Assembly (NCBI RefSeq): GCF_902459745.1
Contig: NZ_CABPSJ010000001.1
Location: 310,001-374,000 of the forward strand
Direction: 5' to 3'
Source of the DNA: Pandoraea communis
GTDB taxonomy: Bacteria > Pseudomonadota > Gammaproteobacteria > Burkholderiales > Burkholderiaceae
Length of the DNA: 64,000 nt
Shown here: positions 20,890 through 36,847 of the stretch, piece after piece
Layout: each line of letters begins with the position of its first letter
Position numbering within the stretch: position 1 is the stretch's first letter
Translations under genes and position numbers: made by a program
The notes under the pieces: generated by a model
What the model saw: the letters and a program-made list of their open reading frames with translations, nothing else
Told to the model about the DNA's origin: nothing
Database searches by the model: none

Positions 20890-22596
20890 GTGGAAGTGTG
20901 GGTACAGAACTACGTGCCGGGTGGCACGCTATGGATGGCGGCACTCATGGCCGCGTTACCGATTGTCGTATTCTTCGTAGCCTTGGCCGGACTGCGCATG
21001 AAGGCGCATACCGCCGGCGCATTGACCGTCGCGCTTTCCCTCGTCATTGCGGTCACCTACTTCGGCATGCCCGCCAGGATGGCAGCCATGTCGGCGGTTT
21101 ACGGCTTTGCTTATGGCCTGTGGCCCATCGCGTGGATCATCATCACGGCGGTGTTTCTCTATCGCGTGGTGGTCGAGACCGGGCAGTTCGACATCATTCG
21201 CAGCTCGGTGGTGTCGCTGACCGACGATCAGCGTCTGCAAATGCTGCTGATCGGCTTCTCGTTCGGCGCATTTCTTGAAGGCGCTGCGGGCTTCGGTGCG
21301 CCGGTCGCCATCACTGCCGCGCTGCTTGTGGGACTCGGCTTCGAGCCGCTCCGCGCAGCGGGGCTTTGCCTGATCGCCAACACCGCGCCTGTCGCGTTTG
21401 GCGCGATGGGCATTCCGATTATCGTGGCGGGTCAGGTGAGCGGCATCGATCCGTTCCATATCGGTGCGATGGCGGGGCGTCAGTTGCCGCTGCTCTCCGC
21501 TTTCGTGCCGTTCTGGCTGGTGTTCATCATGGACGGCAAGCGTGGCGTCAAAGAGACGTGGCCTGCCGCGCTGGTCGCCGGTGGCAGCTTCGCCGTCGCG
21601 CAGTACTTCTCGTCGAACCACATCGGGCCGGAACTGCCCGACATCATCTCGTCTCTGTTCTCGCTCGTGTGTCTGGCCGGCTTCCTGAAGGTTTGGCAGC
21701 CGAAGACGTCGGCCGCGCGCGGCCATGCAGGCGTGAGTGCCTCGGGCGGCGCCGCCGCGCTGGGCGGGTTCGGCGGCCTCAATGGCGGATCGGCGCGCAG
21801 CACCAAGCCGTCGCCTTATACGGCCGGCCAGATCCTGCGCGCCTGGGCGCCGTTCCTGATCCTCACCGGCATGGTCACGATCTGGAGCCTGCCGGGCTTC
21901 AAGGCGCTGTTCGCGAAGACCGGCCCGCTCGCGTGGACCGTACCGTCGCTGCATGTGCCGGGACTGGATCGTCTCGTGGCAAAAGCCGCCCCGATCGTGG
22001 CCACGCCCACGCCGATGGACGCCATCTTCAAGTGGGACGCCCTCTCGGCTACCGGCACGGCGATCTTCATCGCGGCACTGCTCTCGATGGCATTGCTTCG
22101 CATGAAGCCGGCCGCCGGCGCGACGAACTTCTTCAAGACCGTTGCGGAACTGCGAAAGCCGGTGCTGGCCATCGGCCTCGTGCTGGCGTTCGCCTTCGTC
22201 ATGAACTACTCGGGCATGTCGACGACGCTGGCGTTGCTGCTCGCCCACACCGGCGCGGCATTCCCGTTCTTCTCGCCGCTGCTCGGCTGGCTGGGCGTGT
22301 TCCTGACCGGTTCGGACACGTCGTCCAACGCCCTCTTCTCCGGTTTGCAGAGCACCACGGCGCAGCAGATCGGCGTGTCGAACACGTTGCTCGTCGCCGC
22401 GAACACGACTGGCGGCGTGACCGGAAAGATGATTTCCCCGCAGTCGATCGCCGTGGCGTGCGCGGCCACCGGCCTGATCGGCAAGGAAGCCGATCTGTTC
22501 CGCTTCACCGTGTGGCACAGCCTGATGTTCGTCGTGCTCGCCGGTCTGATCACTCTGATTCAGGCGTACTGGCTCACGGGGATGCTGGTGCATTGA
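20890..22596 (+). CDS. lldP: L-lactate permease
   Basis: This 568-residue inner-membrane protein of the lactate permease (LctP) family has about 12-14 hydrophobic helices. The family segment [20 protein letters not shown] begins near residue 125, and the C-terminal part carries [14 protein letters not shown]. It imports lactate, and possibly glycolate, by proton symport. The start is the GTG at 20890 with GAGGAGA at 20878-20884. A region around residues 280-310 is Gly/Ala/Ser-rich and looks like a cytoplasmic loop. It heads the lldPEFG operon. Confidence 0.94.
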
Positions 22597-22613
22597 GTCT
22601 GTCTTCGTTATCG

Positions 22614-22652
22614 ACACTCGCCGCCGCGCTGCCGATGCGCGGCGGCGAGTGT
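22614..22652 (+). repeat. Perfect 16-bp stem hairpin between lldP and lldE
   Basis: ACACTCGCCGCCGCGC (22614-22629) is exactly complementary to GCGCGGCGGCGAGTGT (22637-22652), with a seven-base loop. It ends 23 bases before the lldE ATG and has no T-run. It could uncouple permease and dehydrogenase expression by RNA stabilisation, processing or partial termination. Confidence 0.7.
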
Positions 22653-22675
22653 GTCGTCCCCTGCCGGAGAACCCC

Positions 22676-23458
22676 ATGAAAGTGGCCCTGTTCGTCCCCT
22701 GTTTCATCGATGCACTGTTTCCCGAAGTGGCCATCGCCACCCTGGAGCTGCTGGAGAAACTCGGTGTGACGGTCGATTACCCGCGTCGTCAGACCTGTTG
22801 CGGGCAACCGCTGGCCAACAATGGTTGCGAGGCCGACGCCACCGGCACCGAAACGCTCTTCGTCGAGAATTTCGCCGGTTACGACTACATCGTCTCGCCC
22901 TCGTCGAGTTGCGTGCATCATGTGCGCAAGCATCTGACGGCCGCAGGCGAGTCGGAACGCGTGGCCGCCGTTCGCGCCAATACGTACGAACTCACCGAAT
23001 TCCTTCACGACGTGCTGAAGGTTCGCGATTTTCCGTGGGCAGCGTTTTCGCATACCGTCGGCCTGCACAACAGTTGCAGCGCCATCCGTCATCTGCATGC
23101 GGCGTCGGCCAGCGAGATTCCCGGAGAACCGTGGTCGAAAGCCCGCACGCTGCTCGAGGGGGTGCGCGGCATCCGCTTCGCCGCCCCTCGCCGTCCCGAC
23201 GAATGCTGCGGCTTCGGGGGCACCTTTTCGGTGTCTGAACAGGCGGTGTCCGTGAAGATGGGACAGGACAAGGTGCGCGACCATCTCGACGCTGGCGCGC
23301 AGTTCATCGTCTCGGCCGACATGTCATGCCTGATGCACCAGAAAGGATGTGCGGCACGCACGCAAACCCCGATGCGGTTCCTTCACATTGCGCAGGTACT
23401 CAATGGCGTGGACGTCGGCGCACCGGCGGCCGCGACGCCCAACGAGGTGACGGCATGA
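22676..23458 (+). CDS. lldE: L-lactate utilisation protein LldE/LutA
   Basis: This 260-residue protein has two CCG domains: YPRRQTCCGQPL near residue 43 and DECCGFGG near residue 180, each with partner cysteines (PCF near residue 8; SSSCVHH near 80). These ligate iron-sulfur clusters. With LldF and LldG it forms the iron-sulfur L-lactate dehydrogenase of the LutABC type that converts L-lactate to pyruvate. The ATG at 22676 follows CCGGAGAACCCC. Its stop overlaps the lldF start (ATGA), which points to translational coupling. Confidence 0.92.
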   Translation: MKVALFVPCFIDALFPEVAIATLELLEKLGVTVDYPRRQTCCGQPLANNGCEADATGTETLFVENFAGYDYIVSPSSSCVHHVRKHLTAAGESERVAAVRANTYELTEFLHDVLKVRDFPWAAFSHTVGLHNSCSAIRHLHAASASEIPGEPWSKARTLLEGVRGIRFAAPRRPDECCGFGGTFSVSEQAVSVKMGQDKVRDHLDAGAQFIVSADMSCLMHQKGCAARTQTPMRFLHIAQVLNGVDVGAPAAATPNEVTA

Positions 23459-24864
23459 GCACGGGGCAGCGCGTCGATCACGCGAAGAACGCCGAGGCGT
23501 TTCTCGCGAAAACGGAACACGTGGCGTTTCACGACAAACGCCTCTGGGACCTGCGGATGAAACGCGATGCGCAAGCGGCGTCCATCGGCGAATGGGAGAC
23601 CCTGCGCACGCTCGCGTCGCAAATCAAGGAACACACCCTGTCGCGGCTCGGCGACTATCTCGACCAGTTCGCCACGCAAGCCGAAGCGAACGGCGTGAAA
23701 GTGCACTGGGCGCTCGACGCTGCTGCGCACAATGCCATCGTTCACGGCATTCTCGCGGCGCACGGCGTCAGAACACTCGTCAAGAGCAAGTCGATGCTGA
23801 CAGACGAATGCGAGTTACGCGAGTATCTCGAACCGCGCGGCATCCATGTCATGGAGACCGATCTCGGCGAGCGCATTCAGCAACTCGACAAGCAGCCGCC
23901 GTCGCACGTGGTCGTGCCCGCCGTGCACAAACTGCGGGGAGATGTCGCACAGTTGTTCGGCCGCACGCTCGGCACCGATCCGGCTAACGACGACGTTCGC
24001 TATCTGGCCGAGAGTCAGCGGCAGACCACGCGCCCGGCATTTCTCGAAGCGGGGGCGGGCATGACCGGGTGCAACTTTGCCGTCGCGGAAACGGGCACGG
24101 TCGTGGTCTGCACCAACGAAGGCAATGCCGATTTGTCCGCCAACGTGCCGCCGGTGCACATCGTGTCCATCGGCATCGAGAAGCTGATTCCGCGCATAGC
24201 CGATCTCGGCGTATTCGTGCGCTTGTTATCACGTAGCGCACTCGGGTCGCCGATCACGCAATACACCTCGCATTTTCGCGTGCCGCGCCCGGGCACGGAG
24301 ATGCACTTCGTCATCGTAGACAACGGCCGTTCGGCGCGGCTGGCGATGGACGACTTCTGGTACTCGCTCAAGTGCATCCGCTGCGGCGCTTGCATGAACA
24401 CCTGTCCGGTCTACCGGCGCAGCAGCGGCCTGTCGTATGGCAGCACCTACGCGGGGCCCATCGGCGCGATCCTCAATCCGGCCTACGATCTCAAACGCTA
24501 CAGCGCGCTGCCGTTCGCCTCGACAATGAACGGCAGTTGCACCAACGTCTGCCCCGTGCGCATCAACATTCACGAGCAGTTGTACAAGTGGCGCCAGATC
24601 GTGGCCGAGGAAGGCGAACTGCCGCGCGTCAAGCGCAGCCTGATCAAAGTCGCTGGCAAACTGCTCGCCAATCCGGTGCTGTATCGCACATCGGTCAAGT
24701 CGATGAACACCGCGCTGCATCGGCTGCCCAATATGGTGCTCTACAACCCGCTCAACACGTGGGGCAAAGGCCGCGATCTGCCCGACGCGCCCAAGCAGAC
24801 ATTCCGTGACTGGTATGACGCCAACCGGAAGTCGCCCGACACCGGACGCAAGGACCCATCATGA
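23455..24864 (+). CDS. lldF: L-lactate utilisation iron-sulfur protein LldF/LutB
   Basis: This 469-residue protein combines an N-terminal LUD domain (about 70-295) with a ferredoxin-like module, CIRCGACMNTCPVY (near 308-321) and the later CTNVCPVRI (near 363), which bind two [4Fe-4S] clusters. A C-terminal LutB domain follows. It is the middle subunit of the LutABC-type L-lactate oxidation complex. The ATG at 23455 overlaps the lldE stop, and its own stop overlaps the lldG start, so the three are translationally coupled. Confidence 0.93.
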   Translation: MSTGQRVDHAKNAEAFLAKTEHVAFHDKRLWDLRMKRDAQAASIGEWETLRTLASQIKEHTLSRLGDYLDQFATQAEANGVKVHWALDAAAHNAIVHGILAAHGVRTLVKSKSMLTDECELREYLEPRGIHVMETDLGERIQQLDKQPPSHVVVPAVHKLRGDVAQLFGRTLGTDPANDDVRYLAESQRQTTRPAFLEAGAGMTGCNFAVAETGTVVVCTNEGNADLSANVPPVHIVSIGIEKLIPRIADLGVFVRLLSRSALGSPITQYTSHFRVPRPGTEMHFVIVDNGRSARLAMDDFWYSLKCIRCGACMNTCPVYRRSSGLSYGSTYAGPIGAILNPAYDLKRYSALPFASTMNGSCTNVCPVRINIHEQLYKWRQIVAEEGELPRVKRSLIKVAGKLLANPVLYRTSVKSMNTALHRLPNMVLYNPLNTWGKGRDLPDAPKQTFRDWYDANRKSPDTGRKDPS

Positions 24865-25490
24865 GCACTTCCCGCGAAGCATTTCTCGTGCGCGTGCGCG
24901 CCGCACAACGCGTGGCGCTGCGCGACGACGATCATCCGGCCGAAGGCGCGCGTGAGCCGTTTCCCTTGCCTGCGCTGCCTGTCTTCGAGACACCGGGCGG
25001 CGATCGGTGCGAGCGGTTTGGCAACAACCTCGTCACCATGGGCGGCAAGCTCGCAACGCTCGACAATGCGCAGGCGCTGGCTGCCTGGCTCGCCGAACGC
25101 TTCCCCGGCGTTACGCCAGTGACAGCAACATCGGAAGCCGTGTCGGCGCAACCGCTCGATGTCTTGCGCGCACCTGCGTCGCTGCATGACGTCGACGTCG
25201 GTATCGTGCGCGCCCGCTTCGGCGTTGCGGAGACGGGGTCCGTCTGGCTCTCCGAACGGGAGTACGGCGTCAACGCACTCGGCTATCTGGTACAGCATCT
25301 CGTGGTATTGCTCGATCCGCGCGATATCGTCGACGGCTTGCAAGACATATACCGTCGGCCCGACTTCGCGCTGGCGCGCTATGCGGTGCTCGTTACGGGC
25401 CCATCGGCGACAGCCGATATCGAAGGCGTGCTGATTCAAGGCGCCCAGGGCGTGCGCTCGCTGACCGTCGTGTTGCTCCCTCGCGACTGA
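24861..25490 (+). CDS. lldG: L-lactate utilisation protein LldG/LutC
   Basis: This 209-residue LUD-domain protein is the third subunit of the LutABC-type lactate oxidation system. The conserved ARFGVAETGSVWLSE segment, which is shared with LldF, lies near residues 118-132. The ATG at 24861 overlaps the lldF stop. No cysteine cluster motif is present, as usual for LutC. It ends the operon. Confidence 0.9.
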   Translation: MSTSREAFLVRVRAAQRVALRDDDHPAEGAREPFPLPALPVFETPGGDRCERFGNNLVTMGGKLATLDNAQALAAWLAERFPGVTPVTATSEAVSAQPLDVLRAPASLHDVDVGIVRARFGVAETGSVWLSEREYGVNALGYLVQHLVVLLDPRDIVDGLQDIYRRPDFALARYAVLVTGPSATADIEGVLIQGAQGVRSLTVVLLPRD

Positions 25491-27030: not shown

Positions 27031-27343
27031 TTCTTCCGACTTCCGGCCAATACCGGAATGCCCTGCCGAACGCGTCGAGCCTCGTTAGCGCGTCTTGCCG
27101 TGATCTGCACTCGCTGTGAACACACCGTTCGCGCAGCGCGTTTGATCCGTGTCGTGCGCACCGCCCGCTTTGGAGAACACCGCGCGGCCGCACGCGTCAT
27201 CGCGCACGTATGCGAAACGACATCGAGTTGTCACCACGACGCGCGGGGCATTGTCATTCCCGTGTGTCGCAGCAAGGCACGGCACACGTTCGGCACCCAC
27301 ACGATCATCAGGCGACCGCGACGCGGTCGCGAGAGAGACTCTC
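27031..27343. other. Gap between DUF2946 gene and TonB receptor gene
   Basis: This 313-base stretch contains no gene I can support. I found no Fur box, hairpin terminator or clear promoter hexamers. An in-frame start for the receptor at 27149 exists but would add 65 basic, non-signal residues. Confidence 0.5.
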
Positions 27344-29611
27344 ATGTCACGTCCCATGACACAGAAGCCGCTGCAAACGGCCATCGCACTTGCCCTTGCC
27401 TCGCTGGGCAGCACGGCACACGCACTCACTAACGACCCCGAGACGACTGGCCTGAGCGTTGCGATCGACGCGACACACGCGGCAACGCGCACGGGCCACC
27501 ACCCTGACACCCTCGTTGCTTCGTCAACGCCCAGCACGCAGTCCCCGGCACACGCACCCGCGATGTCTCTCGCGCAGGCGGTTGTGCCTTCGACGGCGTC
27601 CGCAGCGCCGGTTCCCACGGCCACGCTGCCGCTCACGACCGTGACCGCACCGGCAGAGTCGCTCACCTCGCCGAGCGTCGACGACCAGAAGGCCAACCTG
27701 TTCCAGACAGCAGGGTCTGTCGCCTTCGTCGACGCCGATTCATACCAGAACACCTATGCCTTCAACCTGCGCGATATCCTCAAGGACACCCCCGGTGTAT
27801 ACGTGCAGAACCGGTACGGTCAGGAACTGCGCGTGTCGATTCGCGGCTCAGGCATCGCACGCGGCTATCACGTTCGCGGGCTCGACATCCTTCAGGACGG
27901 CATTCCGACCAACTCGGCCGATGGCAGCGGAGACTACTACCAGATCGACCCGATGGGCTTGCGTTCGACCGAGATCTACAAGGGCGGCAATGGCCTCACA
28001 TACGGCTCGACCACGCTTGGCGGGGCCCTGAACTTCGTCACCCCGACAGCCTATACGGCTGACGCGCCCAACCAGTTCCGTCTCGAGGGCGGCAGTTTAG
28101 GCACCGTGCGCGCCAGTGCTCAGATGTCGCGCATCTTCGGCCCATTGGATGCACTCGCGACCGTCACCCTGAATCGCGCCGACGGTTATCGCGACCACGA
28201 CAAGGGCAATTACGCGCAGATCAACGCCAACATCGGCTACAAGTTCTCGCCGAACTTGGAGACCCGGTTCTTCTTCGGCGCCTATATCGTCGACCAGAAG
28301 CTACCCGGCACGCTGTCGCTGTTCGACGCGCTCAACAATCCGACGAAAGCCTCTGCGTCCGCCGTCTCCGGCGATCAGGCACGCAACACACGTACCGAGC
28401 GACTGGGCAACCTGACGACGATTCGCTTCGCCACCGGCCAGCTCGACATCGCGTCGTGGGTCATCCACAAGAGCCTTTATCACCCGATCTTTCAGGTCAT
28501 CGATCAGGACGGCTGGACCTACGGCGTGGCGCCGCGCTACACGGCCAACCTGACGCTCGCCGGCATGCGCAACGACCTGATCGTCGGTGCACGCTTCTTT
28601 GGTGGCAACACGCAGGCCGACCAGTACGTCAACGTGAACGGCAATCGCGGCGCGCGAACGCTCGACGCCCGCCAAAGCGCCTACAACTACGAGGCGTACT
28701 TCGAGAACCGTCTGTTTTTCCTGCCCACGGTCGGCCTGATGATCGGCGCAAAAGCGTACCGCGACGTTCGTCAATACATCGATTACGGCGGCCTGCCGGG
28801 CGACCCGAGCTACCGCTCGACAAGCGCCGCCTACTCGGGCGTCAATCCGAAGATCGGGCTGTTGTGGGAGCCTCGCAAGGACATGCAGGCCTTCATCGAC
28901 GTCACGCGCAGCGCCGACGTGCCCGACTTCACCGATCTGTCGCAGACCTTCGGCGCCACGTCCCGCTTCGTTCCGCTGGCATCGCAACACGCCTGGACGA
29001 TTGAAGCCGGTACGCGTGGCAAACTCGAGCGCGTGGCGTGGGACGTGACTGCGTATCGTTCGCTGGTGCGCGATCAGTTGCTTCAGTACACAACATCGCC
29101 CGACATTCCCGCCGCGACCTTCAACGCGAACAAGACGGTGCTGCAAGGTCTGGAAGTGGGCGCTGCGGTGGACGTGTTCAAGAATGTGGTGGCGACCGGG
29201 GATCGAATCACACTGTCGCAAATCTGGAACTACAGCGATTTCCGTTTCCGCGACGACCCGCAGTACGGCAATAACCGCATCGCCGGTGTGCCGACGAATG
29301 TGCTGCGCACGACGCTCGGCTACGCGTTGTCGAACCGCTTCCAGATCTCGGCGTCGCTCGACTGGGTGCCGACCGGCGCCTGGGTCGACTATGCCAACAC
29401 AATGCGCGTGCCCGGCTACACGCTGCTCGGCGTACAGGCGTCGTACCTGATTCAGCGCGGCGTGACGTTCTATGTCGACGCCCGCAACCTGACCGACAAG
29501 CGCTACGTCACCGACTTCAGCACAGTGACCGATGCCCGCATGACCAATACCGCCGTGTTCTATCCGGGCGATGGAAGAAGCGTGTTCGCCGGCGTGCGCT
29601 TCGCGTTCTGA
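27344..29611 (+). CDS. TonB-dependent outer membrane receptor
   Basis: This 755-residue receptor has a signal peptide (MTQKPLQTAIALALASLGST region, cleavage near AHA) and an unusual 70-80-residue Ala/Thr/Pro/Ser-rich linker. The plug domain follows (NLRDILKDTPGVYVQNRYG near 145; RGSGIARGYHVRGLDILQDG near 167) and then the beta-barrel. The barrel ends in VFAGVRFAF with a terminal phenylalanine. The plug is of the FecA/Fiu-like iron receptor type. The ligand is unknown; the upstream His-rich DUF2946 protein raises copper as an alternative to a ferric siderophore. An ATG four codons later (27356) is an alternative start. Confidence 0.88.
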   Translation: MSRPMTQKPLQTAIALALASLGSTAHALTNDPETTGLSVAIDATHAATRTGHHPDTLVASSTPSTQSPAHAPAMSLAQAVVPSTASAAPVPTATLPLTTVTAPAESLTSPSVDDQKANLFQTAGSVAFVDADSYQNTYAFNLRDILKDTPGVYVQNRYGQELRVSIRGSGIARGYHVRGLDILQDGIPTNSADGSGDYYQIDPMGLRSTEIYKGGNGLTYGSTTLGGALNFVTPTAYTADAPNQFRLEGGSLGTVRASAQMSRIFGPLDALATVTLNRADGYRDHDKGNYAQINANIGYKFSPNLETRFFFGAYIVDQKLPGTLSLFDALNNPTKASASAVSGDQARNTRTERLGNLTTIRFATGQLDIASWVIHKSLYHPIFQVIDQDGWTYGVAPRYTANLTLAGMRNDLIVGARFFGGNTQADQYVNVNGNRGARTLDARQSAYNYEAYFENRLFFLPTVGLMIGAKAYRDVRQYIDYGGLPGDPSYRSTSAAYSGVNPKIGLLWEPRKDMQAFIDVTRSADVPDFTDLSQTFGATSRFVPLASQHAWTIEAGTRGKLERVAWDVTAYRSLVRDQLLQYTTSPDIPAATFNANKTVLQGLEVGAAVDVFKNVVATGDRITLSQIWNYSDFRFRDDPQYGNNRIAGVPTNVLRTTLGYALSNRFQISASLDWVPTGAWVDYANTMRVPGYTLLGVQASYLIQRGVTFYVDARNLTDKRYVTDFSTVTDARMTNTAVFYPGDGRSVFAGVRFAF

Positions 29612-29697
29612 GTCTCAACGGATTGCACCACCCGGCGTGCGCGGCGCAGGAAAGATGCCGCGCACCGCCCGGCAGCAGGTCGTGTGGCGAACCTCGT

Positions 29698-30270
29698 TCA
29701 CAGCATGCGCCGCAACGTATCGTCCCGACGGAAGTAGTGATGCCACAGCGCCGCCAGTGCGTGCACGCCAATCACCCAATAGAACGCGCTGCCGATCGTC
29801 TCGTGAATGTCCTTGATCGACCGGCCCACTTCAGCGTCTTTCCCGATGAATTGCGGCAGCGCGGCATCCAGCCCTGGAATCGTGAGCACATGTCCCCCGG
29901 CATTGAGCGTGAGGTATCCCAGCACCGGCTGCGCAAACAGGAACAGATAGAGCAACAGATGCACCACGGCGGACGATGCCCGCACCAGCCCCCCCTGGCC
30001 GGGTAACGGCGCCGGCGCCCCCTTGATCATTCGCCAGAGCAAACGCGGCACTGCCAGTACCAGCACCACAACCCCGGCCCACTCGTGAATCGTCATGGAC
30101 AACGCACGCGGCGCGCTGCCTTTCGGCAAATACCCTTTCGCGATGACAGCCGCATAGGCAATCACGACCAGCAACGCGATTGCCCAATGAAAGAAGATGG
30201 CGGCCGGCGCGTAGCGCTCGGCCAAGGAGAGCCGCGAGCCGCTCGGGCGGAACTTAATTGCGTTACCCAT
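29698..30270 (-). CDS. Cytochrome b561
   Basis: This 190-residue inner-membrane protein has four transmembrane helices and the histidines expected to ligate two b-type haems: FFHWAIALLV (helix 1), MTIHEWAGVVVLVLAVPRL (helix 2), VVHLLLYLFLFAQP (helix 3), and DIHETIGSAFYWVIGVHALAALWHH (helix 4). Bacterial b561 proteins move electrons between quinol and periplasmic partners, including superoxide. The ATG at 30270 is chosen; an upstream TTG at 30297 is in frame but weaker. It is convergent with the receptor gene. A palindrome lies in front of it at 30300-30316. Confidence 0.9.
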   Translation of the reverse strand: MGNAIKFRPSGSRLSLAERYAPAAIFFHWAIALLVVIAYAAVIAKGYLPKGSAPRALSMTIHEWAGVVVLVLAVPRLLWRMIKGAPAPLPGQGGLVRASSAVVHLLLYLFLFAQPVLGYLTLNAGGHVLTIPGLDAALPQFIGKDAEVGRSIKDIHETIGSAFYWVIGVHALAALWHHYFRRDDTLRRML

Positions 30271-30299
30271 CTGGGGGAGTCCTTTTCTGTCTTGCAAGT

Positions 30300-30594: not shown

Positions 30595-31461
30595 CTACGT
30601 TCGAGCGACGGCTTCCGCCGGAACGACGTGCCGCGCGAGACCGAGCGCCGCCGCATCGATGCCCAGCGCCAAACCAACGAGCTGAGGCAAATGCAGCACG
30701 GGGAGATCCAGCGTAGTACCGAGATCGCGTGCCATGTCGTCCTGATACGTGTCGAGCACTGTATGGCACAAGGGGCACGGCGTCACCATGGCGTGCGCAC
30801 CGGCCGCTTTCGCCGACGCGACGTGCCGACCACTGAGTTTGATGGGAATGACATCACTTTGCGCGGAACAATGAAAACCGCAACACGATGTCCGGCCGGA
30901 ATATTCCACGGTCGTGCAGCCCAGAATCTGCGCCAGCGTCTCGATCGACCGGACGCTCTGCGCGTCCGTGCCCCCGAAGGTGGAGGGTGGCCGAACGATG
31001 TGACAGCCGTAGAACGCCGCGATCCGGTGCGACGACAGCGGCACCTTCACCAGCGAACGCAACCGCACCTCCCCCACCTCCTCAAGCAGATACCACAATA
31101 GGTGCGTCACGCGCGACGTCCCACTGTAGACAAGGCCTTCCTCGGCCAACTGGCTATTCACGCGAGCACGCAAGTCCGAATCGCTTTCCACACGTTGCTT
31201 GGCCTCGATCAGGTTCAACGTACAGGTATTGCAGATCGTCATGAGATCGAGGCCTTTCGCCTCAGCCAACGCAATGATGCGAATGTTCAGCGCAACGAAG
31301 CGCGCTGCATCGGCCGCACGAATCTCACGACTCCCGGTGCAAGTCGCAGAACTCAGCGTCTCCAGTTCGACGCCCAGCCGATCTGCCACGGCGTGCGTGG
31401 CCACCAACAACTCGCTACACGTCGTGCGTGCGCTGCACCCGGGGTAGAAAGCAATCCGCAT
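30595..31461 (-). CDS. HdrB/SdhE-like CCG-domain subunit of an SDH-type complex
   Basis: This 288-residue protein has two cysteine-rich CCG regions. The second is complete: C153, C193-C194-G, C229-x2-C232. The first is reduced: C9, single C41 (in ATCTGS, not CCG), C77-x2-C80. This is the fold of heterodisulfide reductase HdrB and of the SdhE/MfrE subunit of type-E succinate dehydrogenases and methylmenaquinol:fumarate reductases, where it binds noncubane iron-sulfur clusters and contacts the quinone or membrane. The ATG at 31461 is chosen because GAGGAGG sits seven bases upstream; one at 31467 is too close to it. It is the last gene of a three-gene operon. Confidence 0.85.
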   Translation of the reverse strand: MRIAFYPGCSARTTCSELLVATHAVADRLGVELETLSSATCTGSREIRAADAARFVALNIRIIALAEAKGLDLMTICNTCTLNLIEAKQRVESDSDLRARVNSQLAEEGLVYSGTSRVTHLLWYLLEEVGEVRLRSLVKVPLSSHRIAAFYGCHIVRPPSTFGGTDAQSVRSIETLAQILGCTTVEYSGRTSCCGFHCSAQSDVIPIKLSGRHVASAKAAGAHAMVTPCPLCHTVLDTYQDDMARDLGTTLDLPVLHLPQLVGLALGIDAAALGLARHVVPAEAVART

Positions 31462-31484
31462 GCTCATGCCTCCTCGAAAGACAT

Positions 31485-32444
31485 CTATCGGAAGAAAATA
31501 CGTCGGATCGTCTTGATGCCGGGCACCGGTCGACGCAACAACGCGGCCAACGGCTTGACCTTGCCCCGCAGCATCAGCTTGAGCGTGCGCCCGGGTCGTT
31601 GTAGCACCGCGCGCCATCCGCGCGTACCCAGAACGAGCAACATGGGTTCGATCCGCCCTCGCCGCGCCACGATATCCATGAACGTGCGCGCATGCGGCGA
31701 CGCCTCGCGTGCCTGCGCATAGGCGAGTTGCTTGAGCGGTTCGATGGCGGCACTCACGATCGGAATGCCCGCAGGGCAGACGGCTTCGCACTGGTAACAA
31801 GACACGCAATGGTGAACTTGCGCTTCGTCCAGAATGGCCTGCAGACGCGCTCCATCGTCGCGCGCATCCAGCGCAACGCGAGCCAGATGCACGAGTGGCG
31901 CTGGCCCGGCGAACGCGATATCGTCGGGAAAATCGAGCACAGGGCATGCCGAGTAGCAGGCGAGGCAACTCAGGCAGTCCATCGTCGCGCGTAACGACGC
32001 GGCGTTTGCCGCATCGATCGCTTCCGGGAACCCACCGTAAGGACGTGAGCGCTGAAGCCAGGTTTGCAGCGACACCAGCTTCGCTTCGACGGGCGAGCGA
32101 TCGACCGCGAGATCGCGGATTCGCGGCAGGTGGCGCAGCGGCTCGATATGCATCTCCGCTTCGGCCGCCTCCCAGCACATTAGCACCTCCCGTCCATTGA
32201 CCCGCGCGGCGCAGGTGCCACATTTTTTCGTGCCGCAGTACCACCGGTAACCGATGTCCACAGCGAGCGTTTCCTGCACGTAGTTCAGCGCATCGATGAT
32301 GCGCATGTGCCGCACGTGCGGCACCACGTAGGTCTCCACGTATGGCGCCGCGTCCGTTTCCGGATCGAAACGCGAGATGTGCAAGGTCACCGCCGCCAAC
32401 TCACTGGCCGCGTCCTCCCGAAATTGCCCGACGTCCGAATGCAT
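31485..32444 (-). CDS. SdhB/FrdB-like iron-sulfur subunit with two [4Fe-4S] motifs
   Basis: This 319-residue protein has an N-terminal plant-type [2Fe-2S] domain (C70, C75, C78, C90) and two full CxxCxxCxxxCP motifs (C157-C160-C163-C167 and C213-C216-C219-C223). Ordinary SdhB/FrdB lack one cysteine in the last motif and hold a [3Fe-4S] cluster; an extra cysteine is a mark of the type-E (SdhABE/MfrABE/TfrB) group. The basic C-terminal tail of about 75 residues is longer than in classical SdhB. It relays electrons between the flavoprotein and the CCG subunit. The ATG at 32444 follows GAGGGGACAC. Confidence 0.87.
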   Translation of the reverse strand: MHSDVGQFREDAASELAAVTLHISRFDPETDAAPYVETYVVPHVRHMRIIDALNYVQETLAVDIGYRWYCGTKKCGTCAARVNGREVLMCWEAAEAEMHIEPLRHLPRIRDLAVDRSPVEAKLVSLQTWLQRSRPYGGFPEAIDAANAASLRATMDCLSCLACYSACPVLDFPDDIAFAGPAPLVHLARVALDARDDGARLQAILDEAQVHHCVSCYQCEAVCPAGIPIVSAAIEPLKQLAYAQAREASPHARTFMDIVARRGRIEPMLLVLGTRGWRAVLQRPGRTLKLMLRGKVKPLAALLRRPVPGIKTIRRIFFR

Positions 32445-32505
32445 GTGTCCCCTCAGCGCAAATGGTCTTTTTGACGACGGATCCTTAGCGTCGAGATGCC
32501 CCGGA

Positions 32506-34248
32506 TCACCACGGCACACTGAAATACGCTTGCCGATCGAATCCCGGAGCGATGGCGCCCTCCGGATATCGCTCTTGCCTGAACCGGTAGCCGCTGCCAT
32601 CGCGCGCGATGATGTTCTTGCATTGCCATACGGTGTTGTCGACGTAGGGAAAGTCAGTGCGATAGAAGCTGCCCCGGCTCTCTTCACGCCGCAATGCACT
32701 TTGCAATGTGGCTTCGCACACATCGACCAGGTTATGAACATCGAGAGCGTCGAGCCATGCCGTGTTGAAGCGCCGCGACGCACTCGGCGGTTTCATACGC
32801 GGCAGTTCGCGCGCGCGCAGTCCGGCAAGCCGTGTCAGACCGTCGCGCATCGCCTTCCCGTGCTTGATGATTCCGTAGGCCTCGTCCATCACATCCCAAA
32901 TGCCGGTCTTGATGTGCATGGGTGCGAGACACTGTCGACCGGCACCGCTGTCCGTCAGGCCGCCTCCGACACGAAGCGCCTCCACCCGTTGCGCCTCCTC
33001 CCGAATCTGCTGCGCCGTGTGATCGTCGTGGCGATGGCGCTCGGACAAACTCCCGGCGACTGACTCTGCCGCAAGCCCCCCGTCATAAATCGCGACCGCC
33101 AGACTTCCCGTCACGTGAGCCCCGACCCCGCCGGCCACCCACAATCCGGCCACACTGGTGCGCATCGAGTGCGGGTCCGACTCGATGCCGCCCTGCCGGT
33201 AATGCATCGTGGTGCGCGCTTCGACCTTGTCCCGCGTGATGTCGAGCCCCAGCTTCTCGAACGCCGAAGCGGCGTACTGGTAGCGACGCAGCACCTCCGC
33301 GTCGACATGGCGGTAAGACGTGTAGTAGCCGCCGCTGAAGCGCGCCTTTCCCGCAAGCACTTGTTGCGTGAGCCGCTTGACCTGAAGCGAATAGGGCGCG
33401 AGCGCGGCAGGTGCGTCGCGCGACTGCTCGAAGAAACACTCGCCCTGCGCGTTGTACACACGTGAGCTCTGGTCGGTGCCCACCAGCGGATTCGGATAGA
33501 TATGCAGACGCTGCCATGTCGGCGGATTCGCAAAATCGCTGATGTGCCAGAACTGCATTTCCAGATTGGTCATCTCGGCGCCGGCGCGTAGGGCCAGCGC
33601 AATGCCGTCGCCGGTTTGTTCACGCGTGCCCGTGGAGCGACGCACCAGCCGGTCGGCGTGTCCCGTCGCCATGACGACTGCCTTCGCATACACCGCAAAC
33701 ATCTCGCCGCGCACATAGTCCAGCGCGGTCAGGCCGCAGACTTCACCGTTCGCGTTGCGCAAGAGTGCGGTCACGACACACTCCTCATGCATCGGAATGC
33801 CCCCGGCTTGCAGTTGCTTGCGCCGAATGTCCATCAGGAGGATGCCGGTCTGCCCCTGCATGGGAGCGACCGCCCAGCGCACGGGAGAATGGCTCATCGC
33901 GATGCCGCCGTCGGCGTCGCGCGTGAACAGCAATCCCAGCGATTCCATCTCCGGATAAAAAATGTTCTCGATCCAGTTTCCGGCAGCCGCCAGATACGAC
34001 TGATCCACCAGGAAATGGCTGTAGTACTTAGCGAAGAACTCCAGCGAACTGGCAGCGTTCTGCTCGGTGCCGCCGAGCATCTTCGAGCCGACGATCACGG
34101 CGCCCGCCATGATCGATGCGCCGCTCTTGCCGACCAATCCCTTGGAGATCAGCATCGGCTTCAGGCCCAGATGGTGCAGACGCAAGGCGGCGTAGGTGCC
34201 CGCGCCGCCTCCGCCGACGACCACGACATCGCAATGGATCACCCTCAT
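32506..34248 (-). CDS. SdhA/FrdA-like flavoprotein of unknown substrate
   Basis: This 580-residue flavoprotein belongs to the succinate dehydrogenase/fumarate reductase family. FAD-binding GGGGAG is at residues 12-17. The position of the usual covalent-flavin histidine is S42-G43 (GKSGAS), so FAD is probably bound non-covalently. The active-site segment TTMHYRQGGI resembles the HYTMGGI of FrdA, so reduction or oxidation of a C4-dicarboxylate-like compound remains plausible. The C-terminal helical domain ends in VPW. It begins the operon flavoprotein - iron-sulfur - CCG subunit and is divergent from an MFS carrier. No membrane-anchor gene is present. Confidence 0.87.
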   Translation of the reverse strand: MRVIHCDVVVVGGGGAGTYAALRLHHLGLKPMLISKGLVGKSGASIMAGAVIVGSKMLGGTEQNAASSLEFFAKYYSHFLVDQSYLAAAGNWIENIFYPEMESLGLLFTRDADGGIAMSHSPVRWAVAPMQGQTGILLMDIRRKQLQAGGIPMHEECVVTALLRNANGEVCGLTALDYVRGEMFAVYAKAVVMATGHADRLVRRSTGTREQTGDGIALALRAGAEMTNLEMQFWHISDFANPPTWQRLHIYPNPLVGTDQSSRVYNAQGECFFEQSRDAPAALAPYSLQVKRLTQQVLAGKARFSGGYYTSYRHVDAEVLRRYQYAASAFEKLGLDITRDKVEARTTMHYRQGGIESDPHSMRTSVAGLWVAGGVGAHVTGSLAVAIYDGGLAAESVAGSLSERHRHDDHTAQQIREEAQRVEALRVGGGLTDSGAGRQCLAPMHIKTGIWDVMDEAYGIIKHGKAMRDGLTRLAGLRARELPRMKPPSASRRFNTAWLDALDVHNLVDVCEATLQSALRREESRGSFYRTDFPYVDNTVWQCKNIIARDGSGYRFRQERYPEGAIAPGFDRQAYFSVPW

Positions 34249-34580
34249 CGCAGCAGTGCCCTCCTCGGGTCAGTTGTGGGTCTGTGAGACCGCGGAATGC
34301 CATGGGTTCATTGTGGGCAGCGCGCCGGGCGCCGATGCAGCGATCGCGACACGCCATCCAGCAAAGCAGCCAAAGTGGTGGGCGGGCTGCGCGGTCAAGC
34401 CGGGCGAGCAGCGAAGACCGGCAAATGGATCGGAAGCCGCACGCGCCACCCGAGTGAAATTTTGTCCGCTTTGCGATATGTGTTGTCCCTTGCGCGGTGT
34501 GCGCAAGGGGAAGAGAGGCGCTAAGGTGAGTTGGGCCGTCAATCAAACAACAACGACCATCAGCTATCAGGAGACACACC
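34249..34580. promoter_or_regulatory. Divergent control region of the SDH-like operon and MFS gene
   Basis: This 332-base region holds no gene. It contains two direct TTGTCC repeats exactly 21 bp apart (34462-34467 and 34483-34488), as expected for an AraC dimer. A perfect 9-bp inverted repeat, CCCTTGCGC (34487-34495) and GCGCAAGGG (34501-34509), overlaps the second. The MFS ribosome site CAGGAGAC is near 34568. Confidence 0.6.
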
Positions 34581-35882
34581 ATGGATGCGACCCTGCAAGC
34601 CGTCGCCCGCAACGAGCGCGGTTCGCCCGCAAAGTCGGTCATCTTGGGCGCGGGTATCGGCAACGCGCTGGAGTGGTACGACTTTGCCTCGTTCGTGCTC
34701 TTTTCCCGCTACTTCTCGACTCAGTTCTTCCACGCCGAAGATCCGACCGCCGCCTTTCTGTCGACGCTTGCCGTCTTTGCCGTCGGCTTTTTGTTGCGCC
34801 CCATCGGCGGGGTCTATTTCGGTTGGCTTTCCGATCGCCGAGGCCGCCGCAGTGCGATGGTGACCTCGATGGCTGTCACGGCAGCGGGTTGCCTCGTCAT
34901 TGCGGTGTCGCCCACGTATGCGTCAATCGGGTTGATGGCCCCGGTGCTGCTCGTGTTCGGACGCTTGTTGCAGGGCTTCGGTCTGGGCGGCGAGATCGGT
35001 GCGTCGTTCACCTTCCTCGTGGAAAGCGCCCCTGTCCATCGCCGCGGCCTGTGGTCGAGTAGCATGTTCATCGCCATTACAGGTGGCTCGCTGCTCGCCA
35101 CGGCCGTCGGATTGGTATTGACGCAAGTATTCTCGACCGAAGAGATGACACGCTACGGCTGGCGCATCCCGTTCTTCTTCGGCACCGCCCTTGGCGTGTA
35201 CGCGCTGTTTCTGCGCGGCAGGCTCAAAGAAACGTCGGCATTCGAACAGGAACAAAGCGAAGCGCGCACCAGTGTGTCCCCACAACCGATGGCCCGGGCC
35301 ATCTGGGAGCACCGCGCCTCGGTGCTGCGCATCATCGCGCTCACGGCCGGGCCGACTCTGACGTTCAACACCTGGATGTCCGGCGCGATCACGTTCGCCA
35401 CGCACTTCAAAGGCGTCGATGCGCGAGACGGGCTTCTGGCGCTATGCATCGGCTGTCTGGTGTACATGGCGATACAGCCGGTCTGGGGCGCGCTCTCGGA
35501 CCGCATCGGCCGCAAGCCCAACCTACTGATGGGAGCGGGTGGATCGGCGCTGGTCATCGTGCCGTTGCTCATGATCATCGATGCGTCCTTCGTGCGGCTA
35601 ACGCTGGCGATCTGTCTCGGTCTGGCGGTCCTTGCCGCCTGGACTGCCATCGCGCCAGCGGTTTACGCTGAGTTGTTCCCCACACGCATTCGCGCCAGCG
35701 GCGTCGCCATTCCCTACTCGCTGACGGTGGCGATTTTCGGCGGCACGGCCCCCTACTTGCAGAACTGGCTGGCCGATCACGGGCATCTCGGGTGGTTCGC
35801 TGCCTATCTGATTGCGCTGAATCTGTTGACGGTTCTCGCTGTCATCTGGATGCCCGAAACGCGCGGTCGTGCGCTGGAATGA
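34581..35882 (+). CDS. MFS transporter, metabolite:H+ symporter type
   Basis: This 433-residue protein has 12 predicted membrane helices and the MHS-family signatures: GNALEWYDFASF near residue 29, the loop 2-3 motif GWLSDRRGRRSAMV near 80, and a second-half copy GALSDRIGRKPN. MHS carriers import organic acids such as citrate, dicarboxylates, shikimate or proline betaine by proton symport. Because it is divergent from the SDH-like operon and followed by an AraC regulator, it probably brings in the substrate oxidised by that complex. The substrate itself cannot be named. Confidence 0.88.
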   Translation: MDATLQAVARNERGSPAKSVILGAGIGNALEWYDFASFVLFSRYFSTQFFHAEDPTAAFLSTLAVFAVGFLLRPIGGVYFGWLSDRRGRRSAMVTSMAVTAAGCLVIAVSPTYASIGLMAPVLLVFGRLLQGFGLGGEIGASFTFLVESAPVHRRGLWSSSMFIAITGGSLLATAVGLVLTQVFSTEEMTRYGWRIPFFFGTALGVYALFLRGRLKETSAFEQEQSEARTSVSPQPMARAIWEHRASVLRIIALTAGPTLTFNTWMSGAITFATHFKGVDARDGLLALCIGCLVYMAIQPVWGALSDRIGRKPNLLMGAGGSALVIVPLLMIIDASFVRLTLAICLGLAVLAAWTAIAPAVYAELFPTRIRASGVAIPYSLTVAIFGGTAPYLQNWLADHGHLGWFAAYLIALNLLTVLAVIWMPETRGRALE

Positions 35883-35906
35883 GACGCCTGAATGAGAACC
35901 CGGCGC

Positions 35907-35933
35907 CGGGGCGAGGCAACACAAATCGCCCCG
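35907..35933 (+). repeat. Hairpin after the MFS gene
   Basis: CGGGGCGA (35907-35914) and TCGCCCCG (35926-35933) form a perfect 8-bp stem 25 bases after the MFS stop. No T-run follows. It may reduce read-through into the AraC gene. Confidence 0.4.
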
Positions 35934-36019
35934 AGCGTCGCCCTCTGGCCATCACAGGGCATTTTGTCCTGCCATACCCGAGTTAACCCCCATGTCGTGC
36001 ATCTGAGGTTGAGGAAAGA

Positions 36020-36847
36020 ATGAAACGGGCATTTCTTTCCCTTAGCGCCAAGGGGCACGTCATGCAGACACGGATCATCACCGCTCAGGATGTCGCGTTT
36101 TTCGAGTCGCGAATCTCGCCGGCCCCCATGGTCGGGCTAGCCTTCGCGTTTCCATCGGGCGGCGGTGTCGAACCCCATGTCCATCCCTATGGGCAGGTGT
36201 TGTTCGGTGGCGAAGGCATCATGTGCGTCGACACACCGCGCGGCACCTGGGTCGTGCCTCCACAGCGCGCCGTCTGGATTCCGCCAATGACACTGCATGC
36301 GGTGCGGCTGCGAGCCTCGTTTGGCATGCACAACCTGCTGATTTCGCCGCACGCCGTGGCGAACCTGCCCAAGACCTGCGAGCCGCTCGTCGTCTCCAAT
36401 CTCATGCGCGAACTGATTCTGCGTGCGGCAAGCACCGAAGAGCCGCTGCAGCGCAAGCGTCACGTCGACAAGTTCTTCGAGATCATTCTCGACGAGCTCG
36501 AATTCAGCGACGAGATGCCGGTTAAGCTCGAAATCCCGCGTGAGCGACGCCTCGCGCGTCTATGTACCGAGTTTTCGCGCGAACCGTCCGATAACCGGAC
36601 GCTGCAGGAATGGGGCGAACACGTCGGAGCCAGTGCGCGCACCCTGTCGCGACTCTTCACCCGCGAACTGAATCTCACCTTCGACGAATGGCGGCGCCAT
36701 GTGCGCCTGCAAGAGGCGCTCTACCGCCTCGCGGAAGGCAGGGCTGTCTCCGCAGTGGCCAACGAACTGGGCTACGAAAGCACGACGGGCTTCATCGAAA
36801 TGTTCCGTAAATCCCTGGGACGCACGCCCGGTCAGTATTTCGCCTAA
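36020..36847 (+). CDS. AraC-family regulator with cupin sensor domain
   Basis: This 275-residue protein has an N-terminal cupin effector domain (GGGVEPHVHPYGQVLFGGEG begins near 51) and a C-terminal AraC double helix-turn-helix (SARTLSRLFTRELNLTFDEW near 209-228; AVSAVANELGYESTTGFIEMFRKSLG near 246-270, given here as position only). It follows the MFS gene on the same strand. The 9-mer ATTTTGTCC occurs both before this gene (35961-35969) and before the divergent SDH-like promoter (34459-34467), suggesting self-regulation and control of that operon. The ATG at 36020 has GAGGAAAG upstream; 36062 is an alternative start. Confidence 0.85.
   Translation: MKRAFLSLSAKGHVMQTRIITAQDVAFFESRISPAPMVGLAFAFPSGGGVEPHVHPYGQVLFGGEGIMCVDTPRGTWVVPPQRAVWIPPMTLHAVRLRASFGMHNLLISPHAVANLPKTCEPLVVSNLMRELILRAASTEEPLQRKRHVDKFFEIILDELEFSDEMPVKLEIPRERRLARLCTEFSREPSDNRTLQEWGEHVGASARTLSRLFTRELNLTFDEWRRHVRLQEALYRLAEGRAVSAVANELGYESTTGFIEMFRKSLGRTPGQYFA

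Follow-up and report, generated by a model that had tools for sequence, protein, structure and literature searches.

The described systems closest to the locus presented here are the type-E succinate:quinone oxidoreductase (SQR) and 8-methylmenaquinol:fumarate reductase (MFR) complexes (SdhABE and MfrABE), in which three separate genes code for a flavoprotein, a B subunit with one [2Fe-2S] and two [4Fe-4S] clusters, and a third subunit of the CCG type. In the available portion of PMC2680327, the MFR is described as an enzyme without covalently bound flavin adenine dinucleotide (FAD) that can still reduce fumarate, and its flavoprotein as Tat-exported with an N-terminal extension. For FrdA, the accessible text of PMC10238741 assigns substrate binding to H232, H355 and R390, delivery of the proton to R287, and support of the transition state to T244. 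The tricarballylate system TcuA-TcuB-TcuC, as presented in an excerpt of PMC10468695, combines a dehydrogenase, a quinone oxidoreductase and a transporter.

The window analyzed here, a stretch of 64,000 nucleotides from Pandoraea communis (contig NZ_CABPSJ010000001.1, positions 310,001 to 374,000), contains three minus-strand genes, termed A (flavoprotein), B (iron-sulfur subunit) and C (CCG protein), and, divergent from them, the genes for an MHS-type (metabolite:H+ symporter) carrier and an AraC-family regulator (Table 1). We propose, with a probability of roughly 0.58, that the products of A, B and C act together in the cytoplasm as a quinone-linked dehydrogenase, whose substrate would be a carboxylic acid taken up by the cell and distinct from both succinate and fumarate. 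The set of five genes, hereafter the cassette, is not a chance assembly, as judged by the Pfam matches (best E-value per protein from 3e-21 to 7e-35 in all five), the order shared with ten other Pandoraea loci and the low ratios of nonsynonymous to synonymous substitution (dN/dS). No title or abstract opening describing such a complex was found in searches of the open-licence PMC literature. A Pandoraea genome and proteome paper (PMC5987411) reportedly names fumarate reductase once.

The active site of the flavoprotein

The residues of A were assessed in an alignment of 33 flavoproteins with SdhA, FrdA and NadB of E. coli. Six of the rows represent the clade of A (five from Pandoraea and one from G516, a genome of another genus in the same family) and 27 are others; the protein of region L094, which is cut by a contig end, was left out. 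Where E. coli SdhA carries its FAD histidine (H45), A has G43, and its FAD is predicted to be bound non-covalently. Both active-site histidines are kept (H235 and H349). The position of FrdA R287 is occupied by Tyr286, both in Pandoraea and in G516, and the region of FrdA R390 contains no arginine in either lineage (GAHVTGSLAV in Pandoraea, GSHGVGSITF in G516). The Thr-Glu loop is likewise replaced, by the clade-specific loop W245-x-R247-L-H249-x-Y251-P-N-P followed by T258-D259, an arrangement kept in Pandoraea and G516. From the fumarate/succinate site as defined in FrdA (H232, T244, R287, H355 and R390), only the histidines thus remain. Within the genus, the exact strings ALAPY, GAHVTGS and TMHYRQGG (around Y286, the R390 region and H349, respectively) are present in all 11 Pandoraea loci, and a 20-letter string of the H235-H249 stretch is exact in eight of them.

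Outside the clade, both arginines are kept in 26 of the 27 rows, including nine without the FAD histidine. NadB has both, and all ten complete flavoproteins encoded beside SdhE-like genes possess the FAD histidine as well as the two arginines. Because the MFR can still reduce fumarate without the FAD histidine, the loss of the arginines is a stronger statement than the loss of that histidine. The complex has a type-E build, but with both arginines and the Thr-Glu loop gone, succinate and fumarate are very probably not substrates of A. A preliminary description of the locus had recognized the missing FAD histidine (G43), which is borne out by the alignment with H45 of E. coli SdhA, and had overlooked the loss of both arginines.

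Unlike the exported MFR flavoprotein of PMC2680327 (available portion), A starts at its FAD motif, with no N-terminal export extension visible by eye. It is therefore expected in the cytoplasm, so that its substrate must be imported, and the MHS carrier fits this expectation. KstD-like chemistry was considered for Tyr286; no paper on it was found in the open-licence PMC literature.

The electron-transfer subunits

B contains the cysteines for a [2Fe-2S] cluster (70/75/78/90) and two full [4Fe-4S] sets (157/160/163/167 and 213/216/219/223). Cys219 is shared with the 11 type-E-like B proteins aligned; Ile or Val stands at this position in SdhB and FrdB of E. coli and in the canonical SdhB of P. 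communis. B thereby shows the feature by which a type-E SdhB is recognized, a second [4Fe-4S] set instead of a [3Fe-4S] set. In C, the C-terminal site is complete (C155, C195-C196, C231 and C234), and the N-terminal site consists of C11, C43, T44, C79 and C82, with CTG replacing CCG; the string CTGSRE, which includes Thr44, occurs in all 11 Pandoraea loci. The C protein of G516 retains the cysteine at position 44 and has Ser at the position of 231, such that a different ligand was lost in each lineage. Two complete 4Fe-4S motifs in B, and one complete and one reduced CCG region in C, had been reported previously, and the cysteine positions confirm both. C scores 188-213 bits against SdhE-like proteins encoded beside canonical SdhA genes, versus 115-131 bits against six other CCG proteins, and such scores clearly mark B and C as type-E-like.

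Comparison with known systems

Among the equivalog models, A matches TfrA best (179 bits, cut-off 718) and reaches 107 bits with the MFR model (cut-off 1100). The best model for B is TfrB (180 bits, cut-off 385; MFR model 77 bits, cut-off 600), and that for C is the MFR/SdhE anchor (222 bits, cut-off 500), followed by HdrB at 182 bits. The locus shares with the type-E SQR and MFR the three separate genes, the cluster set of B and the CCG-type third subunit, and with the MFR also the lack of covalent FAD (PMC2680327). It differs from them in A, which is devoid of both arginines and the Thr-Glu loop, in C, which has nine of the ten motif cysteines, and in scores that are far under the MFR cut-offs. 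The earlier assignment to a type-E SDH/MFR-like complex is therefore retained for the architecture, which the cysteines and the ranking of the models support, whereas the implied closeness to MFR or TfrA is not, given scores far below the curated cut-offs; nor does the assignment extend to chemistry, since the residues for succinate and fumarate are lost from A.

The thiol:fumarate reductase subunits TfrA and TfrB of methanogens provide the top models for A and B, but the TfrB model (488 positions) spans B and the CCG part in one chain where two genes are present here, and the fumarate site is absent. In outline, TcuABC is also similar, with its flavin dehydrogenase, quinone-linked partner and transporter (PMC10468695, in excerpt), but A is not TcuA, B and C are of the complex-II type, and the regulator here is of the AraC type. 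The TcuA model NF006130 gave 16 matches in the P. communis genome at an E-value of 0.001, none of them at gene A and none over the cut-off. CCG domains are shared with HdrB, and the solved HdrB chain 8rvu_b matches residues 3-282 of C (E 9e-45); C nevertheless prefers the SdhE/MFR-anchor model, and the unit includes no HdrA or HdrC gene. L-aspartate oxidase (NadB) keeps both arginines, A neither, and A lies outside the NadB branch.

Paralogues and phylogeny

The P. communis genome contains four genes with a Succ_DH_flav_C domain, namely A and one each on contigs C3, C4 and C8. The gene on contig C3 belongs, by reading, to a row of sdhC-sdhD-sdhA-sdhB and gltA, and its A and B proteins align as canonical; the housekeeping SDH is thus found elsewhere, as had been anticipated. 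The contig C4 flavoprotein groups with NadB. That of contig C8 (own_C8, L110:7209-8945), a second SdhA-superfamily flavoprotein without the two arginines, also lacks both histidines, has a very long branch and adjoins a gene read as a transport receptor. The SdhA-like protein L035:5574-7262, from genome G014, has both arginines; Leu replaces its first histidine of the active site, and Ser occupies the position of the FAD histidine.

In a flavoprotein tree rooted on NadB, again without L094, a single branch (support 100/100, length 4.1) unites G516 with the Pandoraea rows. This branch lies outside the group of SdhA, FrdA and type-E flavoproteins (98/98) and outside the branch of E. coli NadB and the C4 protein (100/100), and the program warns that long branches meet. 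Subject to that warning, the tree does not place A within ordinary SdhA or L-aspartate oxidase, an outcome that would have spoken against the preliminary description. In an unrooted tree of C, the group of C and its G516 counterpart (90/82) occupies an intermediate place, with 11 SdhE-like rows on one side and six weaker homologues of the CCG type on the other. In the ten complete type-E-like loci, the flavoproteins carry the FAD histidine as well as the two arginines; the complex therefore resembles a type-E complex II in which the flavoprotein was rebuilt or exchanged.

Distribution and conservation

A was used to search 398 genomes of the same GTDB family, with a match defined as an E-value of 1e-60 or better. 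Twelve genomes in two of the 25 genera matched: 11 of Pandoraea, including P. communis itself, and G516. Identity to A is 87-95% in the other ten Pandoraea and about 40% in G516, and at least 20 Pandoraea genomes among the family genomes listed have no match. When named genomes were scanned with the profile of the flavoprotein, seven loci emerged, all in Pandoraea (P. bronchicola, P. anapnoica, P. commovens, P. iniqua, P. capi, P. aquatica and Pandoraea sp. PE-S2T-3). In the genus of G516, one of 60 genomes (G516 itself) matches A at 1e-80. Four of 274 genomes in a class sample match at 1e-40 (P. communis and three at 28-31% identity), and three of 349 in an order sample match the A profile at 1e-60 (P. 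communis and two near 1e-61). Only 18 of 72,556 plasmid records match at 1e-20, all at 24-27% identity; those taken as outgroups (H1, H2, H4 and H16-H20) showed no second copy of the complex, by annotation or, where unannotated, by alignment. The small number of matches across the family, class, order and plasmid searches therefore denotes a rare clade.

Gene content and order of the cassette are identical in the window and in the ten other Pandoraea loci fetched. Eight of 13 window proteins tested, i.e., all but those of the cassette, were not found beside the other ten loci within stretches of 19 kb (matches were counted if they covered at least 40% of the query). The order of the three genes is accordingly kept in relatives, and the claim that the carrier and AraC regulator belong with them holds. 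The dN/dS values are 0.05-0.13 in 19 pairwise comparisons with four other species (three for AraC), and the five genes are therefore maintained under purifying selection.

Homologues of C at 1e-40 or better occur in 57 of 349 phylum genomes, P. communis included. In 17 regions around such homologues (minimum coverage of the query 30%), an A homologue adjoins C in all 11 strong cases, which come from ten genomes, and none was seen in the six weak cases. Type-E-like complexes may thus be common in the phylum.

Gene layout, carrier and regulator

The positions and strands given in the preliminary description are correct. The likely starts of B and C are the ATG codons at 32444 and 31467; the gaps measure 61 bases between A and B and 17 bases between B and C, and purine-rich stretches resembling ribosome-binding sites precede A, B and C (by eye).

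Table 1. Features of the cassette and of the type-E-like operons used for comparison
Feature	Position in the window or region	Strand	Remarks
A, SdhA-like flavoprotein, 580 amino acids	32506-34248	-	Pfam FAD_binding_2 and Succ_DH_flav_C
B, SdhB-like subunit, 319 amino acids	31485-32444	-	Pfam Fer2_3 and 4Fe-4S models
C, SdhE/HdrB-like subunit, 290 amino acids	30595-31467	-	CCG domain, two stretches
MHS-type carrier, 433 amino acids	34581-35882	+	Pfam and family-model matches
AraC-family regulator, 275 amino acids	36020-36847	+	N-terminal cupin match weak, under the Pfam cut-off
Conserved block between A and carrier, putative AraC operator	34460-34488	+	Alignment of 11 loci
A-B-C operons with SdhE-like C	L081-L089, L094, L097		Ten complete A proteins, with FAD histidine and both arginines

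The space between A and the carrier gene comprises 332 bases, with several conserved stretches in the alignment of the 11 loci. The longest of these, which shows few changes, contains TTGTCC at 34462 and at 34483, a direct repeat 21 bases apart, the spacing being that expected for an AraC-type direct repeat. The exact TTGTCC repeat is found in seven of the 11 loci, the other four having CTGTCC in the first half, and it occurs three times in the P. communis genome versus once for a reversed control. The regulator gene noted earlier is indeed conserved; the TGTCC direct repeat of this intergenic space, likewise conserved, had been missed. Relatives of the carrier occur in 668 plasmid records, of which 20 are listed (39-45% identity). 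In four such plasmid regions, an aconitase-family gene was read in one and tripartite tricarboxylate receptors in two; no substrate common to the four was seen.

Elsewhere in the window, a TonB-dependent receptor gene and a cytochrome b561 gene are located at 27149-30297, and the TonB-dependent receptor was likewise not found beside the other ten loci. A lactate utilization set (20890-25490) includes an LctP-type permease over its cut-off, a CCG protein (matches at 22682-23338), a LutB/LldF-like protein of 512 amino acids under its cut-off and a protein of 209 amino acids. The segment 46718-52707 corresponds to a 3-(3-hydroxyphenyl)propionate pathway, with an MhpA-like hydroxylase, a 2-keto-4-pentenoate hydratase and an MhpT-like carrier, all over their cut-offs, together with a ring-cleavage-type hydrolase under its cut-off.

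Clues to the substrate

In eight of the 11 cassette loci, araC is followed immediately, on its own strand, by the aconitase B gene acnB, at a distance of 220-229 bases in the three loci measured. The gene is present in all 11 genomes with the cassette and in eight of ten without it, its neighbors vary, and in the P. communis genome it resides on a different contig from the cassette; the adjacency is therefore a hint only, pointing weakly to a tricarboxylate. One Pandoraea genome has a further, partial match to acnB (G365:C10:90818-91684; residues 17-305, 94% identical). Matches to the TcuA model over its cut-off occur in one of the 11 cassette genomes versus 10 of 20 other Pandoraea, a suggestive difference (Fisher two-sided 0.047, relatedness ignored), and the genome G413 has both tcuA and the cassette. 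The two TcuA rows aligned contain Arg at the catalytic position and none at the second (row Tcu_L140, in a wrong reading frame, was left out).

The A-B-C genes of G516 are situated in a stretch of lower third-position G+C (0.62-0.76, versus 0.86-0.90 in the seven preceding genes). This island also codes for two TctC receptors, a GntR regulator, a Rieske oxygenase, a 2-hydroxyacid dehydrogenase, a reductase, a Rid-like protein and an M20 hydrolase. The best model for the Rieske oxygenase is the glycine betaine monooxygenase GbcA (132 bits, cut-off 670), and the Rid-like protein consists of three Ribonuc_L-PSP stretches, the Rid family being known for imine/enamine deamination. The substrate clues do not agree on one compound.

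Proposed function and alternatives

According to our proposal, A, B and C would assemble as a cytoplasmic, membrane-peripheral complex with the build of a type-E complex II. The MHS carrier would import a carboxylic acid other than succinate or fumarate, and the AraC protein would bind the TGTCC direct repeat and turn on both divergent units when the acid is present. A would then dehydrogenate the acid with non-covalent FAD in a rebuilt pocket, wherein H235 and H349 may still hold a carboxylate, and either Tyr286 or the new Arg247/His249 loop may replace the lost arginines. The electrons would pass from the [2Fe-2S] cluster of B to its two [4Fe-4S] clusters, then to the CCG cluster(s) of C and finally to quinone. 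A dehydrogenase that delivers its electrons to quinone had also been favored in the preliminary description, and both the direction and the partner are inferred here. That this quinone-linked dehydrogenase serves a substrate class new to the complex II superfamily, with the arginines replaced, the type-E wire kept, and a carrier and regulator of its own, stands at about even odds.

Several observations weigh against the proposal. Non-covalent FAD is also found in an enzyme of reduction only, the MFR (PMC2680327). C departs from the ten-cysteine motif of the type-E SdhE by one residue, and one cluster may therefore be altered or absent. In the unrooted tree, C and its G516 counterpart are parted from the six weaker homologues by a 100/97 branch and from the 11 SdhE-like rows by a 98/98 branch, and long branches meet. 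Structure prediction of A from eight Pandoraea rows gave a mean pLDDT of 34, and the description of the pocket is therefore taken from the alignment. The space between A and the carrier yielded no sigma-70-like promoter. In P. communis, C is followed closely on its own strand by the cytochrome b561 gene (29698-30297), whose product might serve as a further partner; none of the other ten Pandoraea loci showed this gene next to the cassette. Finally, the neighborhood in G516 is unlike that in Pandoraea and points to no single substrate.

The chain might also run in reverse, from quinol through C and B to A, which would reduce an imported unsaturated acid as an electron sink, as do MFR or soluble enoate reductases; we consider this unlikely. 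L-aspartate oxidase, of the same fold, combines non-covalent FAD with oxidation, the members of Pandoraea are mainly aerobes, and the carrier and regulator resemble a catabolic unit. The top model for C is indeed the MFR anchor, and in MFR, as in mutants of covalent enzymes, non-covalent FAD coincides with a lost ability to oxidize succinate (PMC2680327, available portion), but A lacks the arginine to which protonation of fumarate is ascribed (PMC10238741, accessible text). A special case of the preferred dehydrogenase, in which a tricarboxylate such as tricarballylate would be converted to cis-aconitate and enter the tricarboxylic acid cycle via aconitase B, would make the complex an analogue, and not a homologue, of TcuABC. 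This is doubtful, although the position of acnB, the match of the carrier to the TcuC model (244 bits, cut-off 445), the similar make-up of TcuA-TcuB-TcuC (PMC10468695, in excerpt) and the scarcity of tcuA in cassette genomes are consistent with it. Against this, acnB is also common without the cassette, the Fisher test disregards relatedness and G413 holds both systems, and the loss of carboxylate-binding arginines would be odd for such a substrate; the two TcuA rows aligned have the catalytic one and not the second.

Oxidation of an amine or amino acid to an imine, in the manner of L-aspartate oxidase and with transfer of the electrons to quinone, is suggested by the Rid-like protein, GbcA-like oxygenase and M20 hydrolase of the G516 island. 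It is nonetheless improbable, since the tree separates A from NadB, no such genes recur, by reading, beside the Pandoraea cassette, and those of the island may serve another path. Least credible is sequence drift in what would otherwise be a standard type-E succinate dehydrogenase or fumarate reductase: the overall architecture is that of type E, but A has lost the FAD histidine along with the Thr-Glu loop and both arginines, constraint is strong, and a full sdhCDAB set is present elsewhere in the genome.

Implications

The chemistry of complex II depends centrally on the two arginines. A conserved clade under selection that has dispensed with both of them and kept the type-E chain thus represents a natural test of substrate change within the fold. 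The best family models would label A-B-C as a succinate dehydrogenase/fumarate reductase, which is probably wrong. For Pandoraea, whose members occur in soil as well as in people with cystic fibrosis, the complex is likely to constitute a catabolic step.

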